This document shows positions 155 through 54,374 of a DNA stretch of 55,879 nucleotides, in pieces (position 1 is the first letter of the stretch; the number at the start of each line of letters is the position of its first letter). Location: positions 1 to 55,879 of the IMG/VR virus record IMGVR_UViG_3300018079_000013, one strand, 5' to 3'. The DNA is from a virus. The notes under the pieces were generated by a model. It was not told the origin of the DNA. It worked only from the letters and a program-made list of their open reading frames with translations, and did no database searches. Both the position numbers and the translations under genes were made by a program.

Positions 155-746
155 TGTGCTCCTAACTGCTGATTACCTAAATGGAGCCTAGAGTCCGGCA
201 TGGTTCCGCTTGCCCATACGCGCGTTCGCTCTAGATAGGGTATCGGTTGACTTGAAGCGATTTCACACCGCCTACCGGGTTGCTCCCTAGGCTCCATTCA
301 AGTATGGGGTAGCGTTGCCGACTGCCTGCGGCGTGCGCCATGATCGTCACGTGGAATTTTACGCTACCTCAATGAGCTACACAGGTGCGCCTTATCCGAA
401 GAGTTTGCGCTTATGATTCTTACAGACCTGTGTAGCTCATTCAAGTATGGAATCAGGGACACAGCCACTTACCTTTCAACCCTGATCCCGAATGCCGTTT
501 CACCTTATGCCGCTTGCCAAAGCGGATCACCTGGATTTACACGCATCCGGTTACCAGGAGTTAGGCTCATAGGTAGCTGTGTCGCATTCCTATAAATTGT
601 TGACCGCTTTGTTTTGGGCAGGCGGTCAGTCTGCCAGGAGGTTGCTATTTCGCTCCTGACTCGGCCTCCCGAATCGTCAGGTTAACGCTATCCGATTTCC
701 CGTCGGTAGTCGGGCGAAGCGCCACAGATACGCGGAGCAGTGGACG
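155..746. repeat. Gene-free island of tandem hairpin modules (left end)
   Basis: No convincing gene lies here. At least five inverted-repeat modules abut. Arms are 180-191 with 287-298 (12 bp perfect), 306-315 with 361-370 (10 bp, one wobble), 371-386 with 426-441 (16 bp perfect), 458-465 with 576-583 inside a longer interrupted stem from 446 to 594, and 601-607 with 622-628. The 12-mer ATTCAAGTATGG occurs exactly at 296-307 and 439-450, each time at a module exit. The loops contain further small stems. Similar islands occur elsewhere in the leftward unit. Confidence 0.7.
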
Positions 747-1867: not shown

Positions 1868-2075
1868 ACTGTTACCTCCTTTCGAGCAGTCCACACTGTT
1901 TTGACTTGGAGCACAAGGCTCCACGAGCTACCCGCCGGAGCGAAGGCGCAGCCTTCGCCACGTCACGCCGGTACGTTGGACGATTTGTACGTTTCGGGGT
2001 ATCCGGTTCCCGAACCTTTGTCGCCCCAGTATAACGACGGGTAGCTCGTGCAGCCTGCGCTAGCTCTGCACTAAT
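1868..2075. repeat. Multi-arm hairpin module between genes
   Basis: A perfect 13-bp stem (1922-1934 with 2038-2050, CACGAGCTACCCG) encloses about 100 bases with three internal arms. Arm one is CCGG...CCGG around the 8-bp hairpin GCGAAGGC/GCCTTCGC. Arm two is a GTAC pair. Arm three is GGGG...CCCC around GGTTC/GAACC. No reading frame with a ribosome site lies here. The cloverleaf-like plan matches the other islands. Confidence 0.65.
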
Positions 2076-4797: not shown

Positions 4798-5060
4798 TTT
4801 TGTTACCTCCCTGTAGATTCCGTGAGCTAGTAGTGATTGACCTCGTGCAACCTCCCACGTCTGTGTCCGGCGTTCGACTCGGTGTGTTCACGAGTCCCGG
4901 TGTCCAGGCCGATTGTGTAGGTGTGACTACTAAGCTCACGCAACCTACCAATGGCTGCGCTTATTAGTTTCGGTGCCACGAGTGAACACTCTTAGCTCTG
5001 GCGCTCTGCATTGCGCGGTGTTCACTAACAGAAATCGTCGTGGCACACTCCTGTATAGCA
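4798..5060. repeat. Two adjacent large hairpin modules
   Basis: Module one pairs 4821-4834 with 4926-4940 (14 bp with one bulged base) and holds an inner CTCGTG/CACGAG stem. Module two pairs 4973-4981 with 5038-5046 (9 bp perfect) and, directly inside, 4981-4989 with 5018-5026 (AGTGAACAC/GTGTTCACT). A TGCTATACA extended -10-like word reads leftward near 5050. No gene is seen. Confidence 0.6.
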
Positions 5061-5631: not shown

Positions 5632-6185
5632 GTTTACCTCCCTGTTTGCCTGCCTGTTTTCAGTGTAGCAGGGCTGTCAAGTAGCACCCTACATCTAGCC
5701 TATTTCTAGGTAGGATAGGGTGCTACTTCACGTTCCTTTCTGTCACATGAGCCTAGCCTTATTACGGATTTATCCAGCCAGTGTGATTGATTAGCTGGTA
5801 CCGCGCCCGATATTCTATCCGCGCTCCGTCTTTCCTAGATTACGGGATGGCGTCGGGCATTCGTGCTAGGCTCATGTCACAAAGTCGGTTGACAAAGTGA
5901 CAATCCACCGCTTTTCAGTGAAATTGTAATACTTAGTCGTTTCTGTCACGAGAAGGTGTAAATTCCCACCTCTATTACGAGGGAGTAGTAGTTACTTACT
6001 AGTAAAGAGGATAGATTCCTAGGAAACTACCCTAGATTACCAGCTAGTTACTTCACCTTCCCTCAAGACAAAGGTGAGGATTTATACAACGAAGGCAACA
6101 CGCTACGCAATCGCGCAATCGTGAATCCGCGTTGTCACAAACTCGGGGTTACGTTAGCTAAGCTAACGCATCCCTGAATCTGTCA
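5632..6185. repeat. Gene-free island with at least four hairpin modules
   Basis: No gene with a ribosome site is present. Perfect arms are 5680-5691 with 5716-5727 (12 bp), 5741-5757 with 5865-5881 (17 bp), 5952-5958 with 6054-6060 (7 bp) and 6152-6159 with 6161-6168 (CGTTAGCT/AGCTAACG). The 17-bp module encloses arms CCAGC/GCTGG and GCCCGA/TCGGGC. The hexamer TGTCAC occurs five times at or near module edges (5741, 5875, 5945, 6134, 6181). A GAAATTGTAAT word at about 5920-5930 recurs near 7394. Confidence 0.7.
5662..5680 (-). promoter_or_regulatory. Putative leftward promoter/operator motif
   Basis: Minus strand TTGACA, seven bases, TACACT within TGCTACACTG; it is near-identical in layout to the site at 2279-2297. 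It lies upstream of the GTG start at 5631 and overlaps the arm of the hairpin at 5680-5727. Confidence 0.45.
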
Positions 6186-6594: not shown

Positions 6595-7161
6595 TCAGTC
6601 GTAATCGGCTTGCGATCCACCGACGATTGCGAGCATCCGAGCATTGTGCTCATCGTGCGTCGTGGTCGCTGTTGCGCGTCTCCTGCGCGGAACATCCTCG
6701 CCGGTGGTTGGCTCGAATGCTTCCCTGTGGCCGTCGATGATGCTGTAGCAAGTGCCATCCCACTTCGTGGGCCACTCGATCTTTGAAGGTCGATCGAGTG
6801 TCCAGCGAGGTAGCACCCTTACCTCGGTCGCGTTGACCGTCTCTGCGAGGGACAGGTTGGTAGGTCGAACCATTGCAGCGCGACTACCATTGTGTCCTTC
6901 GTGCGCCATCGTGGCGACCACTTCGAGCCGGTCGTGCTGTAGAGCGTTGAAGGTGTCGTGCATGTCTACCGTCCAGTAGCGTGGATGTCGCCGTAGGAAG
7001 CGAACGTTAGGGGTAGGAGTATCAAACAGTCCTACCGTGTCCTTACGTGCGCTTATAACGGCGCAGCGTCGTGCCAGGCGATGCGCTTGCATCGTGCGCT
7101 GTCGCCTGCCGTGCTGTCGCGCGTCGAATCGAGCGCGACAAAGGTACTCGTCAAGGGTCAT
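6595..7161 (-). CDS. First gene of the leftward unit, 188-residue hypothetical
   Basis: The start MTLDEYLCRARFDARQHG at 7161 follows GGAGGCAAC. The N-terminal half is strongly basic (RRQRTMQAHRLARRCAVISARK) and could bind nucleic acid. The C-terminal half is mixed and ends in a basic, low-complexity RRRRATATTT segment. It is the first leftward gene after the divergent control region, a position often taken by early regulators or host-takeover proteins; that is inference from position. Confidence 0.65.
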   Translation of the reverse strand: MTLDEYLCRARFDARQHGRRQRTMQAHRLARRCAVISARKDTVGLFDTPTPNVRFLRRHPRYWTVDMHDTFNALQHDRLEVVATMAHEGHNGSRAAMVRPTNLSLAETVNATEVRVLPRWTLDRPSKIEWPTKWDGTCYSIIDGHREAFEPTTGEDVPRRRRATATTTHDEHNARMLAIVGGSQADYD

Positions 7162-12194: not shown

Positions 12195-13262
12195 ATGAAA
12201 CGCATTACTGTAATTGCCGTCACGATAGGTATTGCGCTTGGGCTTACAGGGTTTGCCCTAGCTACTCATACTACTGAGATCGAAAAAATCGTTTTGCCTT
12301 GGACGCTTGTTATTGGGGATGAAACTGTAACGGGTGAAACGACGATTACGGACACTGACGTTCTACCGCATGAAACAATCACAGGCCCGACAACGACCAT
12401 TACGGACACAACCATAACTACGGTGACTGTCACGGAACCGCCACCTACTACAACCACGGAGCCTACGCCTCCCGGCGATCTCGTCTGCACCACGGAGAAC
12501 TATTGGAACGAGGTTGAAAACAAGCAGGCATGGACGTGGGATGAGTGCAAAGTGGGAACCGTGATCGAGGTCACGAATGAGGAGTGGGCTTGCCGCGAGC
12601 CGATCGCAAACTACGGCCCGCTTCCGATCAAGGTCGTATCGCGTTGGAGTATTCCGAATCCTAGTGGCTCACCAAACATCGCAATTTCGATCAACTCGGG
12701 TTGCACCGCTTCCGCAGGTACGGCCATTAATCTGATCCCGGACGTGCAGGGTGTAAGCGGTGGGCAAATCTCGGATGCCTTCAAAACGCGTCAGGTTCCA
12801 GGGCCACAGAACATTCGCTTGACCGGAAGGCTCGGGTGTGGCGATCGGCTTGCCGCTGACCATCAGGACGGTGTGCAATTGCAAGGTGGCCGCGAAATCG
12901 CCTTCGTGAACATGGACGTTGGAGGGGATTACGAGGCTGGCGAGGCGAACTGCCAAGGAGCGGGCGGCGCATTTTTCTGGTCGATCAATGAGACGCTTGC
13001 GGTTATTCTCGGCGGGACGTACATCGGATGCAATCACGCACTTGACGTGCATTCCGGCGAGGCAGCACTTGGCTCAGGGGTTCGTAACGCGAAATTCCGC
13101 TCTGGGCGCAACTCAGGAAATGGTGGCCCGGCGGGTCTGTGTGAAAGAGCAGATGGGACGCCTTTCTTTACTTCGCCGCCGTGTCTTAATACGGGCAATC
13201 TTAATTTCTTCGATAACAATGTCTGTCAGCGCTGGAATGGTACGGCTTGGATAAATCAATAG
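12195..13262 (+). CDS. Secreted beta-helix-like protein with Thr/Pro-rich linker
   Basis: The 355 residues begin with a classic signal peptide (MKRITVIAVTIGIALGLTG, then FALA before THT). Next comes a Thr-rich stretch with a PPPTTTTEPTPPG linker (about residues 60-95). The C-terminal domain has spaced beta-strand patterns (IRLTGRLGCGDRLAADHQDG, VNMDVGGDYEAGEANC, TYIGCNHALDVHSG) like right-handed beta-helix, pectate-lyase-like proteins. Signal peptides are rare in virion operons. It could be a host-like adhesin or polysaccharide-binding protein exported before lysis, or a captured host gene. Confidence 0.7.
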   Translation: MKRITVIAVTIGIALGLTGFALATHTTEIEKIVLPWTLVIGDETVTGETTITDTDVLPHETITGPTTTITDTTITTVTVTEPPPTTTTEPTPPGDLVCTTENYWNEVENKQAWTWDECKVGTVIEVTNEEWACREPIANYGPLPIKVVSRWSIPNPSGSPNIAISINSGCTASAGTAINLIPDVQGVSGGQISDAFKTRQVPGPQNIRLTGRLGCGDRLAADHQDGVQLQGGREIAFVNMDVGGDYEAGEANCQGAGGAFFWSINETLAVILGGTYIGCNHALDVHSGEAALGSGVRNAKFRSGRNSGNGGPAGLCERADGTPFFTSPPCLNTGNLNFFDNNVCQRWNGTAWINQ

Positions 13263-13403
13263 ATGACACTTGCACTTCCAGTCGTTTCGAACGCCGTTCA
13301 CGAAAGTAACTTCGAGGCAACCCCGTCTCTGAGTCCCGGTACGCTCATTACGGCGAGCGCTACGCCACACACCAAGGGCGCGTGGATTGACGTGGTGCCA
13401 TAG
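13263..13403 (+). CDS. 46-residue truncated copy of the downstream fibre N-terminus
   Basis: An ATG immediately follows the previous stop and a TAG immediately precedes the next ATG. The product starts MTLALPVVSNAVHESNFEAT and ends HTKGAWIDVVP. It parallels the first about 47 residues of the next protein (MTLALPVPAWLAFETNLTAT...HVKGAWTSC) with the same spacing. It is either a relic of fibre domain replacement or a deliberately short N-terminal module. The duplication is visible in the sequence; its purpose is unknown. Confidence 0.7.
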   Translation: MTLALPVVSNAVHESNFEATPSLSPGTLITASATPHTKGAWIDVVP

Positions 13404-14243
13404 ATGACGCTCGCGCTTCCCGTTCCTGCGTGGCTTGCGTTCGAGACGAACCTTACGGCTACGCCTGTCGCAGGGGCAGGAAACCTCATCACGGCCGCTG
13501 GTACTGCTCACGTCAAGGGTGCGTGGACGTCGTGTATCGATCCCGTGGACTATGACTCCTACGGTTTATGGATAGGACTCAACGATAGCGCGGTTGCGAA
13601 TACGCGCACGGATCAGTTGCTCGACATCGCTATCGGGCCGTCCGGAGGCGGCTCGGAACAGGTCATCGTCTCTAACCTGATCTGTGGTTGGAGTGCCACC
13701 GGAGCGGCGAGCGCAACCTACATGGGACGCAGATTCTTCCTGCCGATCTTCATTCCAAAGGGTGTTCGCGTCTCGGCACGCATCCAGGCGCTCATCGTCT
13801 CGGATACGATGCATTTACAGATCGGACTGCTCGGAGGGGAGTCGAATCTCGGCTGGCCTATCTGTATGGGAATGGACGATTATGGCGTCGATACGGCCAC
13901 ATCGGGCGGAACCTCGCATACCCCCGGAAACTCCGGTGCGTACTCGGCCTACACCAACTTGGGCTCGACTCTCTCCCGGAACTATAAGGGTGTCCTCATG
14001 CTCCCGCAGGGAACGATGAGTGACACGGTGATGGGGAGCCTCGCCTACTACTGGCAGGCAGCTATCTCTTCCGGCACGATTGCCTCGTGGCAATACGAGA
14101 CGACTACTGGAGAGAATGTGACCGGCCCGTGGCCGGGGCAGCCCTTCATGGCCGAGTTGCCATCGGGTACGCAAATGCAAGTGCGAGCGACCTGCTCGGG
14201 CACGGCCGAGGCACAAGATGTCGGGATGTATTGTCTCTACTGA
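13404..14243 (+). CDS. Tail fibre-like protein (279 residues)
   Basis: It begins MTLALPVPAWLAFETNLTAT. The N-terminal about 50 residues match the preceding mini-gene. The rest is Gly/Ser/Thr-rich beta sequence (RRFFLPIFIPKGVRVSARIQ, LGSTLSRNYKGVLMLPQG), consistent with a fibre shaft and tip. It overlaps the following gene as TGATG. The G+C content and codon choice here look higher than in flanking genes, as expected for an exchangeable fibre. Confidence 0.7.
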   Translation: MTLALPVPAWLAFETNLTATPVAGAGNLITAAGTAHVKGAWTSCIDPVDYDSYGLWIGLNDSAVANTRTDQLLDIAIGPSGGGSEQVIVSNLICGWSATGAASATYMGRRFFLPIFIPKGVRVSARIQALIVSDTMHLQIGLLGGESNLGWPICMGMDDYGVDTATSGGTSHTPGNSGAYSAYTNLGSTLSRNYKGVLMLPQGTMSDTVMGSLAYYWQAAISSGTIASWQYETTTGENVTGPWPGQPFMAELPSGTQMQVRATCSGTAEAQDVGMYCLY

Positions 14244-29800: not shown

Positions 29801-30293
29801 AGAACTTGTTAGTGCAACTCCGAAGCAGACACGCAATCTTGTTGCGAAACTTAATCGAGCAGAGAAGGATATCAAAGCTGCTACTCAGCTAGATTTTACT
29901 CGTGAGATTGAAAGCTTCCGCAAGGCAGGAACGAACATGGGCGAAGCAATCATCAACGGTTTCCAGAGTGCCGGTGTCGGTGCATGGTTCGACGGATGGA
30001 TCAAAGCGACCTTCCCCGACCTCATTAATGCCGCCGTAGCACAAGCTGTGAAAGACTGGAAAACGCAGAATCCTAAGACGGTTGCCCCACCACTTGCGCC
30101 TCCACCACCTCCAATACAACCACCGATACAGCCACGGGGAAATACCACAACTACCACAACCCATACCGATAACTCCAAGACAGCGAACATTCATGTTGGC
30201 GGAGGTTATGAGCCTTACTCACCTAGAAACCCAACAGATGAACTACGTAGGGCAGCTTTTATTGCTCGTAACATTCCTTGGTGGAGTAGATGA
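26892..30293 (+). CDS. Tape measure protein
   Basis: At 1,133 residues it is the largest gene and sets tail length: at about 0.15 nm per residue, roughly 170 nm. The N-terminal part is coiled coil. A TP901-type core begins near residue 236 (NFSKNVSLAATQMTRIGAGT). Hydrophobic segments at about 576-626, 634-660 and 668-706 fit membrane passage during DNA entry. A Pro-rich tract (about 1066-1086) and a Thr run precede the C-terminus. The gene follows the chaperone pair and overlaps the next gene by ATGA. Confidence 0.92.
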   Translation: MAMRMGELMVVVRAQDFASRTLRRVGAEMGQLSRAQRIAAAQTNIAFQKSAALARVAEAESMMRRVRYIETGRAMKQQLSVAKQLQESESKIRGPGGRFKAGIKQTDIRNWQNATAAANAYGITNKNLASTVRDLDPLVTKFDQRIANMPVGLQRAAQSTGAFGNALYKARRNLDLAYAGLSRAQQAELAFNQAMRAMPIQRLHEVGHALSGIGRTLQLFGAIGTAAFGLAAVQAANFSKNVSLAATQMTRIGAGTNEAVANAAELSDELLKLSKDFPFAASEMADAVYEIFSGTNVQRIDQGVSLLEAFARVAVAGQVDIQTATKAGIIVLNNFRGAGEDVSGTLNRMFAIVRFGFMRFSDFATMLPKVAAAAYGSGQSLDDMAGIMAFLTRRTGDASIAATQISRVFDLFARKEFETGLHKINSEFKGMRDVEGKLLPLPELLGNIMKAFPELAKGGKSLERFIQTVTRATDPKTKGLLSTAEARRFFRFVFRNFKEYAMLQRKAVADNGEFQRSFETMMKTPGVQWDIFVNRIKVGIVVIGNAAIPVFANMGRAIARFLDWWEQLDKGTRNTIVKWGVLISVGALVTGVLASIIGALISLALMFGGAAFNIGKFIAGLFGINKALFAMRGGLPALLLLTRLVGFLSAIGVITLALKVAWTGQATAIDFIMGAIAGAGAGFLLGGPPGAIVGAITVPVLLKWIADERGKSAADVAFDKLQESQGGNPSFFEALMGSPSDFLKWSQDAGKTMVVGRQEFERQWNELVKFTKSKSPIAGLDRDVMKFHPKIVKLFNAYQAGIDKSDKSAKNNVETWDQAMKRIDKLIKMGKGGIVGKLVQDLLADADESFDALEDTTVQRAQQLQDVIKQTTQQAMDSLRSLYSQLLSENEQAFGALFQGPWLTSQTFDLAKEWGITPRIQDIIRDLDEQIEQFRQRRKMIDTLFKRGLPQGFLDELRTMDAEQAMPLLKELVSATPKQTRNLVAKLNRAEKDIKAATQLDFTREIESFRKAGTNMGEAIINGFQSAGVGAWFDGWIKATFPDLINAAVAQAVKDWKTQNPKTVAPPLAPPPPPIQPPIQPRGNTTTTTTHTDNSKTANIHVGGGYEPYSPRNPTDELRRAAFIARNIPWWSR

Positions 30294-52559: not shown

Positions 52560-53009
52560 TCACTCACGTTCCACCGTCCCGTCTGCGTATATGATCACGC
52601 GCGGGATACCTTTCCTTTCCGCTTTGCGTACAGTTGACCATGTGCCGCTTCGATAAAATGGCCTTGGGTTGAGCGGCCACTGCTGCGGACATGCTATCAG
52701 CATAGCACATGTGTCAACTATTGCCTGATTGCGAACCGTGTACGATGCAGGTAGCTCGACTCGATCAGTCGCGTCACGTGGGCAGTCTGCACGATACTTT
52801 GAACTCGCGGGCGGATGCACATGTACATTGTAACCTATTGCTTTGGCACTGGTATGTGCTTGTTCGTCGGCTCCGATGCAGTCACCATGATGAAACCAAA
52901 TGGCACCACTATTGCGTAGCTCCGCGAGCACAGTTCGCAGGGCATGCCGTTGCTTGCTAGACAAGCCCAATCGCGTGCCTGTGAAGCCAACGTGTACGAC
53001 TTCACTCAT
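52560..53009 (-). CDS. SLOG-fold (YspA/DprA-like) nucleotide-binding protein
   Basis: The 149-residue protein begins MSEVVHVGFTGTRLGLSSKQ, with IWFHHGDCIGADEQAHT, RNQAIVDTCAMLIACP, and SGTWSTVRKAERKGIPRVII: the Rossmann-like SLOG layout that binds nucleotides or nucleotide signals. Phage copies are frequent near replication genes. GGGAGGTAAC precedes the start. A TTGACA-N7-TATGCT motif (52699-52717) lies within the gene. Confidence 0.75.
   Translation of the reverse strand: MSEVVHVGFTGTRLGLSSKQRHALRTVLAELRNSGAIWFHHGDCIGADEQAHTSAKAIGYNVHVHPPASSKYRADCPRDATDRVELPASYTVRNQAIVDTCAMLIACPQQWPLNPRPFYRSGTWSTVRKAERKGIPRVIIYADGTVERE
52699..52717 (-). promoter_or_regulatory. Recurrent TTGACA-N7-TATGCT motif
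   Basis: The fourth copy of the motif (TTGACA, seven bases, TATGCT, with TGC before it), inside the SLOG gene. It could drive the 321-residue gene below, or be a chance match because it lies in coding sequence. Confidence 0.35.
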
Positions 53010-53682
53010 GTTTGTTACCTCCCTTGGTTTATTGAGCTACGTAGGGCGATTCTAACCTTAGCCCTTCGCATATTTTTGCGACTCGTCGTGGCATAGCCGC
53101 TAAACTATACCGCGTGCGATGCTACCCGCAATTTCTCTACCTAACTCCACTGATACAGTCGGCTCTATATGCACTTTACCATTCTTCAACAGCTCCATGC
53201 AGAAACTAGGCTCGACTGCATCTATGGGCAGTCCTACGTAGCTCACGGAGCGGGCGCAATGAATTGCTGATTCCCGATTTACCGTCGAGCGGGATAAAGC
53301 CCAAACGGACTCACGGTTTGATCAGAGAGTCAACGAACTATCCTGGATCGTTGAGCTTCTTCCTCCATTGCGTTTATCCCGCTCCGTCAACTACGTAGCT
53401 CAATGAGTGAGGCTCCCGCATGGCTTGCCACCTAACAAGTTGCGGTCGGGGAGCAGGTGTTTTGTGTTCGATCCCCACGTCCTCACTCATTCAACTACGT
53501 AGAGGTTTATTGCCCGTCGCGTAGTTGCATCTACCACGGGCCGTGTGCACCGAATGATACAGACATGCACACCTAGCACGGAAGACCTACCAGTGCGATG
53601 CAACGAACGGTAGGTAGCATCGTGAGAGTGACTACGCTGCAACGGTCACTCTCGTTATGAGCGTGGCTTGCAGGCAACACAC
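53010..53682. repeat. Gene-free island with tandem multi-arm modules (right)
   Basis: No gene with a ribosome site occurs for 670 bases. Modules: 53033-53045 with 53233-53245 (TGAGCTACGTAGG, 13 bp); 53247-53254 with 53378-53385 plus 53255-53261 with 53366-53372 (8 and 7 bp); 53402-53412 with 53481-53491 (11 bp); 53585-53591 with 53609-53615; and 53624-53632 with 53645-53653 (9 bp). The palindrome CTACGTAG occurs four times (53037, 53234, 53391, 53495), at the joints. The third module holds a T-loop-like GTTCGATCC but does not fold as a tRNA. Confidence 0.7.
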
Positions 53683-53808
53683 TCATACCTTTATGAGTAG
53701 ATTTTCAGGTTCTACCCAAACACCATAATTCGCCATTATGATCAGGACAAACATGGCATCGATGTATTCCTGCTCGGTTTCAAACCAAGCAAGGAACACT
53801 TCAGGCAT
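53683..53808 (-). CDS. 41-residue protein
   Basis: The ATG at 53808 lies eight bases inside the end of the upstream gene. The 41 codons begin MPEVFLAWFETEQEYIDAMF and end LLIKV. An acidic-aromatic start is followed by a hydrophobic helix (FVLIIMANYGVWV). A small hairpin, ACTCAT/ATGAGT, covers its stop. Moderate support. Confidence 0.5.
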   Translation of the reverse strand: MPEVFLAWFETEQEYIDAMFVLIIMANYGVWVEPENLLIKV

Positions 53809-53986
53809 GTGATAATTCGTGTGCCAGTTCATCGTGATCACCATGAAGGATACGACCTAGGTTTTCGGCTACTCCCCAATACGTTTTAACGGAGATCGGG
53901 TCGAAACCCAAACCCTGATCGTATTGTGTCTCTAAGAGACTAGTTTCGCCTATCGCATCCTTCATGCTGATCACGAAGATCAGCAT
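53801..53986 (-). CDS. Hypothetical 61-residue protein
   Basis: The start MLIFVISMKDAIGETSLLET at 53986 follows AAGGCAAC. The N-terminal strand, then a helical segment (VAENLGRILHGDHDELAHEL), looks like a compact regulator or DUF. It is followed by a small coupled gene and the structured island. Unknown function. Confidence 0.6.
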   Translation of the reverse strand: MLIFVISMKDAIGETSLLETQYDQGLGFDPISVKTYWGVAENLGRILHGDHDELAHELSHA

Positions 53987-53993
53987 TGTTGCC

Positions 53994-54374
53994 TTACGCG
54001 GCGTTCGGGTTTTCAAGGTAAACCGTGCCGACCTTCGATTCCTTGTCGGTGCGGCTCGAAACCTTGACGTGCTGCACGCCTTCGGGCGCGTTCTTACCGT
54101 CGCGTGCGTTCTTGAGCGCCGTCGAGATCGAAGACGCTTGCTTACCTGCGAACTGACCCGTCTGAGTCGAGATTCGCGCGAAGCGCTGACCCGACTGCGC
54201 GAACGCGGTCAGAACCTTACCGTAGATGCCCTTCTCGGCTGAAGCGGCTGCGCCAGCCTCGGCCCACTCCTCTTCGGACATCGACTCGAAAATGTTCTCA
54301 ACTTCACTTGCACTCATGTCGCTGTTCCCTTCCTCTTGTGTTTGAACTTCAGTGTCTCTTCGTTGTCTCGCCAT
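53994..54374 (-). CDS. Hypothetical 126-residue helical protein
   Basis: Two starts each have a ribosome site: ATG 54374 (GAGGAAGGCGA) and ATG 54317 (GGAAGGGAACAGCGAC), giving 126 or 107 residues. The acidic helix SEVENIFESMSEEEWAEAGA is followed by a basic, Ser/Thr-rich half (QFAGKQASSISTALKNARDG). A leftward promoter in the upstream gene (54482-54510) could drive it strongly. Unknown function. Confidence 0.65.
   Translation of the reverse strand: MARQRRDTEVQTQEEGNSDMSASEVENIFESMSEEEWAEAGAAASAEKGIYGKVLTAFAQSGQRFARISTQTGQFAGKQASSISTALKNARDGKNAPEGVQHVKVSSRTDKESKVGTVYLENPNAA

Follow-up and report, generated by a model that had tools for sequence, protein, structure and literature searches.

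Predicted RNA modules with a central G·G mismatch in the early operon of an uncultured phage and its relatives

The viral record IMGVR_UViG_3300018079_000013, analysed over its whole length of 55,879 nucleotides (the window), carries copies of a predicted RNA module in the gaps between its early operon genes, and comparison of the copies shows that each module has a variable interior closed by an inner helix of 8-16 bp, which a single G·G mismatch separates from a short outer helix. The family and the structure of these G·G modules are very secure, and they represent a real, undescribed phage RNA family without an Rfam match. Tentatively, we regard the modules as cis-acting sites for processing or controlling the early polycistronic mRNA, which seems the most likely of the functions considered.

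Anatomy and covariation of the modules

The closing helices follow the consensus 5'-GUAGYU-G-AAUGAG-N... ...N-CUCAUU-G-AGCUAC-3' around a variable, often branched interior, and the closing duplexes comprise about 16-27 bp as two helices around the G·G. In a helix scan that allowed any single mismatch, G·G was the mismatch in 8/8 one-mismatch helices scoring at least 13.5 on the minus strand of the window (M3, M2, E, D, G, F, I and Lm3). This is not a chance result, because G·G accounted for only 18/201 single mismatches in unrelated fetched contigs at a similar score cut. The modules and the two neighbouring genes are:

53391..53502, minus strand: M3, CUACGUAGUU-G-AAUGAGUGAGG ... CCUCACUCAUU-G-AGCUACGUAG, three-way-junction interior
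53234..53398, minus strand: M2, CUACGUAGUU-G-ACGGAGCGGG ... CCCGCUCCGU-G-AGCUACGUAG, large branched interior
53033..53245, minus strand: M1, perfect 13-bp closing helix UGAGCUACGUAGG/CCUACGUAGCUCA, possible 49-aa frame inside; the final joint copy lies 23 nt ahead of the next gene's ATG
53503..53720, minus strand: M4, hairpin run upstream of M3, holding CAACUACG, a perfect partner of the M3 5' arm
53832..53976, minus strand: E (E54), UCGUGAUCA-G-CAUGAAGGAU ... AUCCUUCAUG-G-UGAUCACGA, kept in L126 and L127; the 3' arm overlaps the start of a small ORF
365..447, minus strand: Lm3, left island, ACUU-G-AAUGAGCUACACAGGU ... ACCUGUGUAGCUCAUU-G-AGGU
180..298, minus strand: Lm1, left island, same frame with G·U replacing G·G
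1916..2056, minus strand: D, with G·G, upstream of the phrog_1221 gene; homologues in L126/L129 and L127
4813..4948, minus strand: I, GUAGGUU-G-CGUGAGCU ... AGCUCACG-G-AAUCUAC, ending 15 nt before an ATG with a ribosome-binding site
5739..5883, minus strand: G, UUUGU-G-ACAUGAGCCUAGC ... GCUAGGCUCAUGU-G-ACAGA
5676..5731, minus strand: F, simple hairpin GU-G-AAGUAGCACCCUA..., 44 nt before a GTG with a ribosome-binding site
53994..54374, minus strand: gene of a 126-aa protein of no known family, candidate partner
52560..53009, minus strand: gene of a 149-aa protein, directly downstream of the right island, weak phrog_289 match

An initial annotation of the right-hand island (53010-53682) had placed the palindrome CTACGTAG at 53037, 53234, 53391 and 53495, and a word search recovers it there, at four module joints (53037..53502, no strand assigned). 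Two more copies occur at 30243 and 39773, which gives 6 in the window against 0.60 expected, a number reached in 0/100 shuffles. The palindrome (CUAC+GUAG) arises because the module end AGCUAC abuts the next start GUAGUU without a spacer; it is therefore the abutment of two module ends and not a motif in itself, and a role as a protein-binding site, for which a test had been suggested, is not supported. Other closing helices of the window lack the word, and the joint in relatives reads ACGTAGCT or GCTAGCT, so that the palindrome is not retained there. The reported 13-bp stem corresponds to the inverted repeat TGAGCTACGTAGG/CCTACGTAGCTCA at 53033-53045/53233-53245. Likewise, the junction words said to be common to both islands are present, CTCAATGAG only at 368 and 53399 and CTCATTCAA only at 436 and 53486; singly they are weak evidence, since two copies were reached in 13-14/100 shuffles, and they occupy matching structural places in the left and right islands. 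Compared with shuffles, the right-hand region folds much more stably, with z -7.0 on the plus and -6.5 on the minus strand. Our results thus agree with the proposal that the two islands are one structured family other than tRNA and that the joint words matter. The proposed circular or permuted map also holds: a 49-aa ORF with a ribosome-binding site spans the contig ends (82 to 55812, minus strand), and because this frame reads across the ends, the islands lie about 2.4 kb apart on such a map. The modules at 1916-2056, 4813-4948, 5676-5883 and 53832-53976, the assignment of the RNA to the minus strand and the G·G mismatch common to the modules go beyond that annotation.

Sequence and covariation show the structure, conservation and position of the modules, the covariation in a gap-free alignment of 21 copies. 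Standard pairs fill 97.3% of the pair cells, a percentage that is partly fixed by construction since all 21 copies were picked by helix score; the diversity of the pair sequences is not. Two-sided changes were found in 16/16 pairs, while both mismatch Gs are invariant (the pattern that retrieved 4/21 copies included the G·G and six pairs of the inner helix; the remaining 17 copies were obtained without it). The covariation score is 0.946 versus 0.05-0.14 for slid partners; the slid versions are only 29-44% paired, and 0/500 shuffles were as good. The copies also differ throughout the interior and the distal helix and in this respect depart from REP/BIME elements, which are near-identical dispersed repeats accompanied by a transposase. 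The interiors were considered as conserved folds and rejected as such: with a mean z of -1.1 against shuffles they are on average not significantly more stable, and interior sequence is common only to L127 and L142.

Two further pairings were seen in the window. Within the M2 interior, a 12-bp helix GAGCGGGATAAA/TTTATCCCGCTC (53287-53298 / 53373-53384) competes with the closing helix ACGGAGCGGG/CCCGCTCCGT. A gap structure at 4973-5046, GTGCCACGA...TCGTGGCAC with AGTGAACAC...GTGTTCACT, is without the G·G frame.

Strand, operon position and distribution

Folding energy and gene direction show that the modules lie on the minus strand. The stretch that descends from about 8 kb across the join and on to 36.8 kb has its genes on the minus strand, the minus (sense) strand folds better in 20/21 elements, relatives included, and a 3x3 loop CUC/CAA of the plus strand resolves on the minus strand into U-A, U·G and just one G·G. 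From these observations we infer that the modules belong to the early minus-strand transcript, with which, judging by the sequence, they would be transcribed. Within the operon, a start codon with a ribosome-binding site follows the end of several modules (M1, I, F, L142, G001-c and G003-a) at a distance of 15-44 nt, and in others (E in three phages, L128 and G003-c) the 3' arm and a start codon overlap; for about half of the modules the distance to the next clear start is 90-480 nt.

Close relatives retain the elements, and the G·G family is present in at least seven related uncultured phages. An IMG/VR search with the neighbouring proteins returned L126/L125 and L127, which are syntenic with the window and have a 321-aa gene about 50% identical. 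Both L126 and L127 carry E and D in the same places, with the G·G kept and the helices changed by compensation, and L127 additionally carries M. A pattern search with the foot of M gave 7 stretches: L127, four with long compensating helices and two chance matches without such helices. Two records taken whole contained more G·G modules outside the search pattern, so that G001 has three in total, and G003 holds three clear G·G modules and one weak. The replication and structural proteins of these phages are mostly 30-55% identical to each other, which indicates one uncultured clade. The cultured actinophages sampled, which have phrog_1221 or a gene related to the 321-aa gene, showed no comparable set of G·G helices; a blastn comparison of three islands with 50,697 phage records gave only noise, and GTDB genomes had no match by protein or by pattern. 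A candidate from L124, found via its phrog_1221 gene, was rejected since its AAUGAGUGA hairpin overlaps a gene and lacks the G·G. Pairs of CTACGTAG as an IMG/VR search key returned at least 119 stretches, and those checked were without structure and are attributed to chance. A hairpin GGCAGACTGACCGCCTG...ACAAAGCGGTCA is common to the window at about 600-640 (minus strand) and L129 at about 6711-6746, with 88.6% identity over 35 nt.

A gene of about 125 aa, homologous to the 126-aa gene of the window, precedes the islands in L126, L127, L128, L138, G001 and G003, and it was found upstream of the island in each relative where that stretch was covered. For instance, L128 has a short G·G module directly after its homologue, and G003 has two paralogues with modules after each. 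The 126-aa protein has no match in family libraries; its structure model is of low confidence (pLDDT 65), with no PDB match and no recognisable RNA-binding fold. Its place next to the islands may be simple synteny.

Possible functions of the modules

The reading of the modules as cis-acting sites in the polycistronic early mRNA is suggested by the G·G in 8/8 helices, the covariation, the same placement in L126 and L127 and the module ends near start codons, together with the 126-aa family that precedes the islands and the length of the closing duplexes. The G·G-centred foot of the helix would be the recognition feature, read either by a host-encoded nuclease of RNase III type that cleaves the mRNA in its intergenic gaps or by an RNA-binding protein, for which the 126-aa family is a candidate. 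Cutting or binding would then affect expression, such that processing or translation would treat the next gene downstream as a separate unit, and by exchanging strands the foot may determine the timing during RNA synthesis. An invariant G·G amid freely changing helices yields a sharp hypothesis, namely that a single point change should abolish recognition, and the 126-aa gene is a concrete candidate partner. The unusually clean covariation belongs to a family of an uncultured clade, which is found in none of the sampled cultured phages.

RNase III processing sites separate the early genes of phage T7 and similar phages, and are likewise long irregular duplexes in early polycistronic gaps upstream of individual genes. 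The modules differ from such sites in their invariant G·G with about 13 bp of conserved sequence around it, in their large branched interiors and in their tandem arrays with shared joints, and cleavage of the modules is only putative. Large interiors and much conserved sequence around the G·G would be needless for a plain nuclease site, which seems to argue against the nuclease variant. The closing duplexes, in two helices, do have the length of about two helical turns asked of an RNase III substrate; the rules for bacterial sites have been described (PMC11780869). We found no RNase III gene in these phages, and a host enzyme would therefore be required for cutting, which by RNase III would take the form of paired cuts 2 nt apart. 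Another cis-acting structured RNA of early phage transcripts is HK022 put, an antitermination RNA of two small stem-loops near the early promoters; the modules, however, are many and lie along the whole operon. Our literature survey yielded nothing fitting, neither for G·G helices nor for intergenic phage RNAs of this kind.

Several other readings were weighed against the cis-acting site. A folding switch is a live, if rather unlikely, rival. It would have the order a' - a - (domain) - b - b', with the a:b helix and its G·G competing against a':a and b:b', where that G is paired to a C instead, and the winner would expose or hide the start of the next gene or act on transcription. Upstream partners of 6-9 bp, with C opposite the G, exist for all six D and E copies and for M3, and downstream partners of 9-13 bp for L127, L138, G001 (two) and G003; both exceed shuffled flanks (Fisher p 7.7e-6 and 1.4e-5, respectively), although only 12/42 single tests pass 0.05 and some modules have no partner. 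The M element of L127 is balanced at 0.53/0.47, and repairing its G·G locks it, but it is the only balanced case, as a:b wins at equilibrium in 11/12. We consequently reject equilibrium bistability as a general property, and any switching would be kinetic, during transcription. Attenuator-type leaders, which switch between 1:2 and 2:3 pairing, share with the modules a middle strand able to pair upstream or downstream near a ribosome-binding site; they differ in that here one state is strongly favoured at equilibrium in 11/12 cases and any terminator or leader peptide of the putative switch would be hypothetical. A second live rival, likewise unlikely, is a large stable non-coding RNA of 600-800 nt in the style of ROOL or GOLLD, to which the islands would belong and in which the modules would be domains stacked end to end by the CUACGUAG joints. 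Non-coding islands of about 700-800 nt in G001, G003 and L138, a second conserved domain (K, see below) common to L127, G001 and G003, and further sequence common to L138 and G003 upstream of the module are consistent with such an RNA; on the other hand, D, E, F, G and I stand alone, dispersed over the operon, order and content vary among the phages, the interiors are not unusually stable (mean z -1.1), and K is absent from the window. ROOL and GOLLD are large phage RNAs with extensive covariation and without a known protein partner (PMC12286853). Large structured non-coding islands and extensive covariation are features common to both, while the modules here occur singly in the operon, differ in sequence and structure, have no tRNA island in the window and have no Rfam match (no covariance model, ROOL and GOLLD included, matches the islands). 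As a kind, moreover, ROOL and GOLLD are discrete, abundant, homo-oligomeric RNAs, which the present islands would also have to be under this reading.

The two remaining readings, DNA sites and tRNA genes, are both very unlikely. As DNA-level elements, the palindromic joints and inverted arms would be sites of protein binding or recombination, and the perfect palindrome CTACGTAG is indeed enriched at the island. This is largely refuted by covariation, with two-sided compensation over 16 pairs; the arms are kept as complements save for one fixed G·G, which inverted half-sites do not need, the sense strand folds better, and relatives do not retain the palindrome. Degenerate or permuted tRNA genes have next to no probability. 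The T-loop-like string GTTCGATCC noted in the initial annotation does exist on the plus strand without a tRNA, but this is opposite to the RNA strand and it forms no T-arm; in addition, this locus holds permuted tRNA parts in L128, a distant relative. Against these points, ARAGORN found no tRNA or tmRNA in the window, and no tRNA after in-silico rotation of 15 islands on both strands, while Rfam gave 0 matches at gathering score and none up to E 5 for both window islands. For the window, the tRNA reading is already refuted as far as sequence tools reach. The array of L128 enters one further, improbable reading that spans the clade: the G·G foot may be the handle of a dedicated phage ribonucleoprotein containing the 126-aa family, and the cargo that the foot encloses may be exchangeable. 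The cargo would be branched domains in the window phage, islands with the K domain elsewhere, and in L128, at the same locus, permuted tRNA genes framed by CGUAG...CUACG. If this were true, the module would be a clamp for the excision or circularisation of RNA cargo, and not a simple control of mRNA.

The K domain and the tRNA array of L128

The K domain comprises 144 positions and has a closing helix of 11 bp, two hairpins whose loops are conserved and an arm, likewise conserved, GGCAAACUCGUAGCUA...ACGUAGGCC; two-sided changes occur in 16/38 predicted pairs (L127, G001 and G003). The copies that show this covariation are:

L127:5674-5817: K domain
L151:17029-17172, minus strand: K domain
L153:17926-18074: K domain

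A model built from K matches only L127, G001 and G003 among the sequences searched, and not the window, and Rfam has no match to K up to E 10. K looks like a separate new RNA, and in the phages that bear it, it speaks for a larger island RNA. L138:4880-5010 (minus strand) and L153:17625-17730 have the non-coding sequence GCGTCACTACTAA ... TAAACAC.A.A.CGCTCAC in common, upstream of an M module, and this is perhaps another conserved island domain.

Following the 126-aa gene homologue of L128 (IMGVR_UViG_3300002121_000006), positions 12640-13920 contain repeated frames GGTGCGTAGnnnTGGGTTACTTC ... GGTTCTCGCTACG around permuted tRNA parts, in which the T-arm and the acceptor 3' strand precede the acceptor 5' strand and the D-arm. 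ARAGORN called no tRNA in the unrotated array; among rotated joins, 475/64,354 were called tRNA versus 0 in three shuffles. The array looks like permuted tRNA genes in a phage. Inside it, L128:13639-13815 matches the Rfam manA RNA with 57.4 bits.
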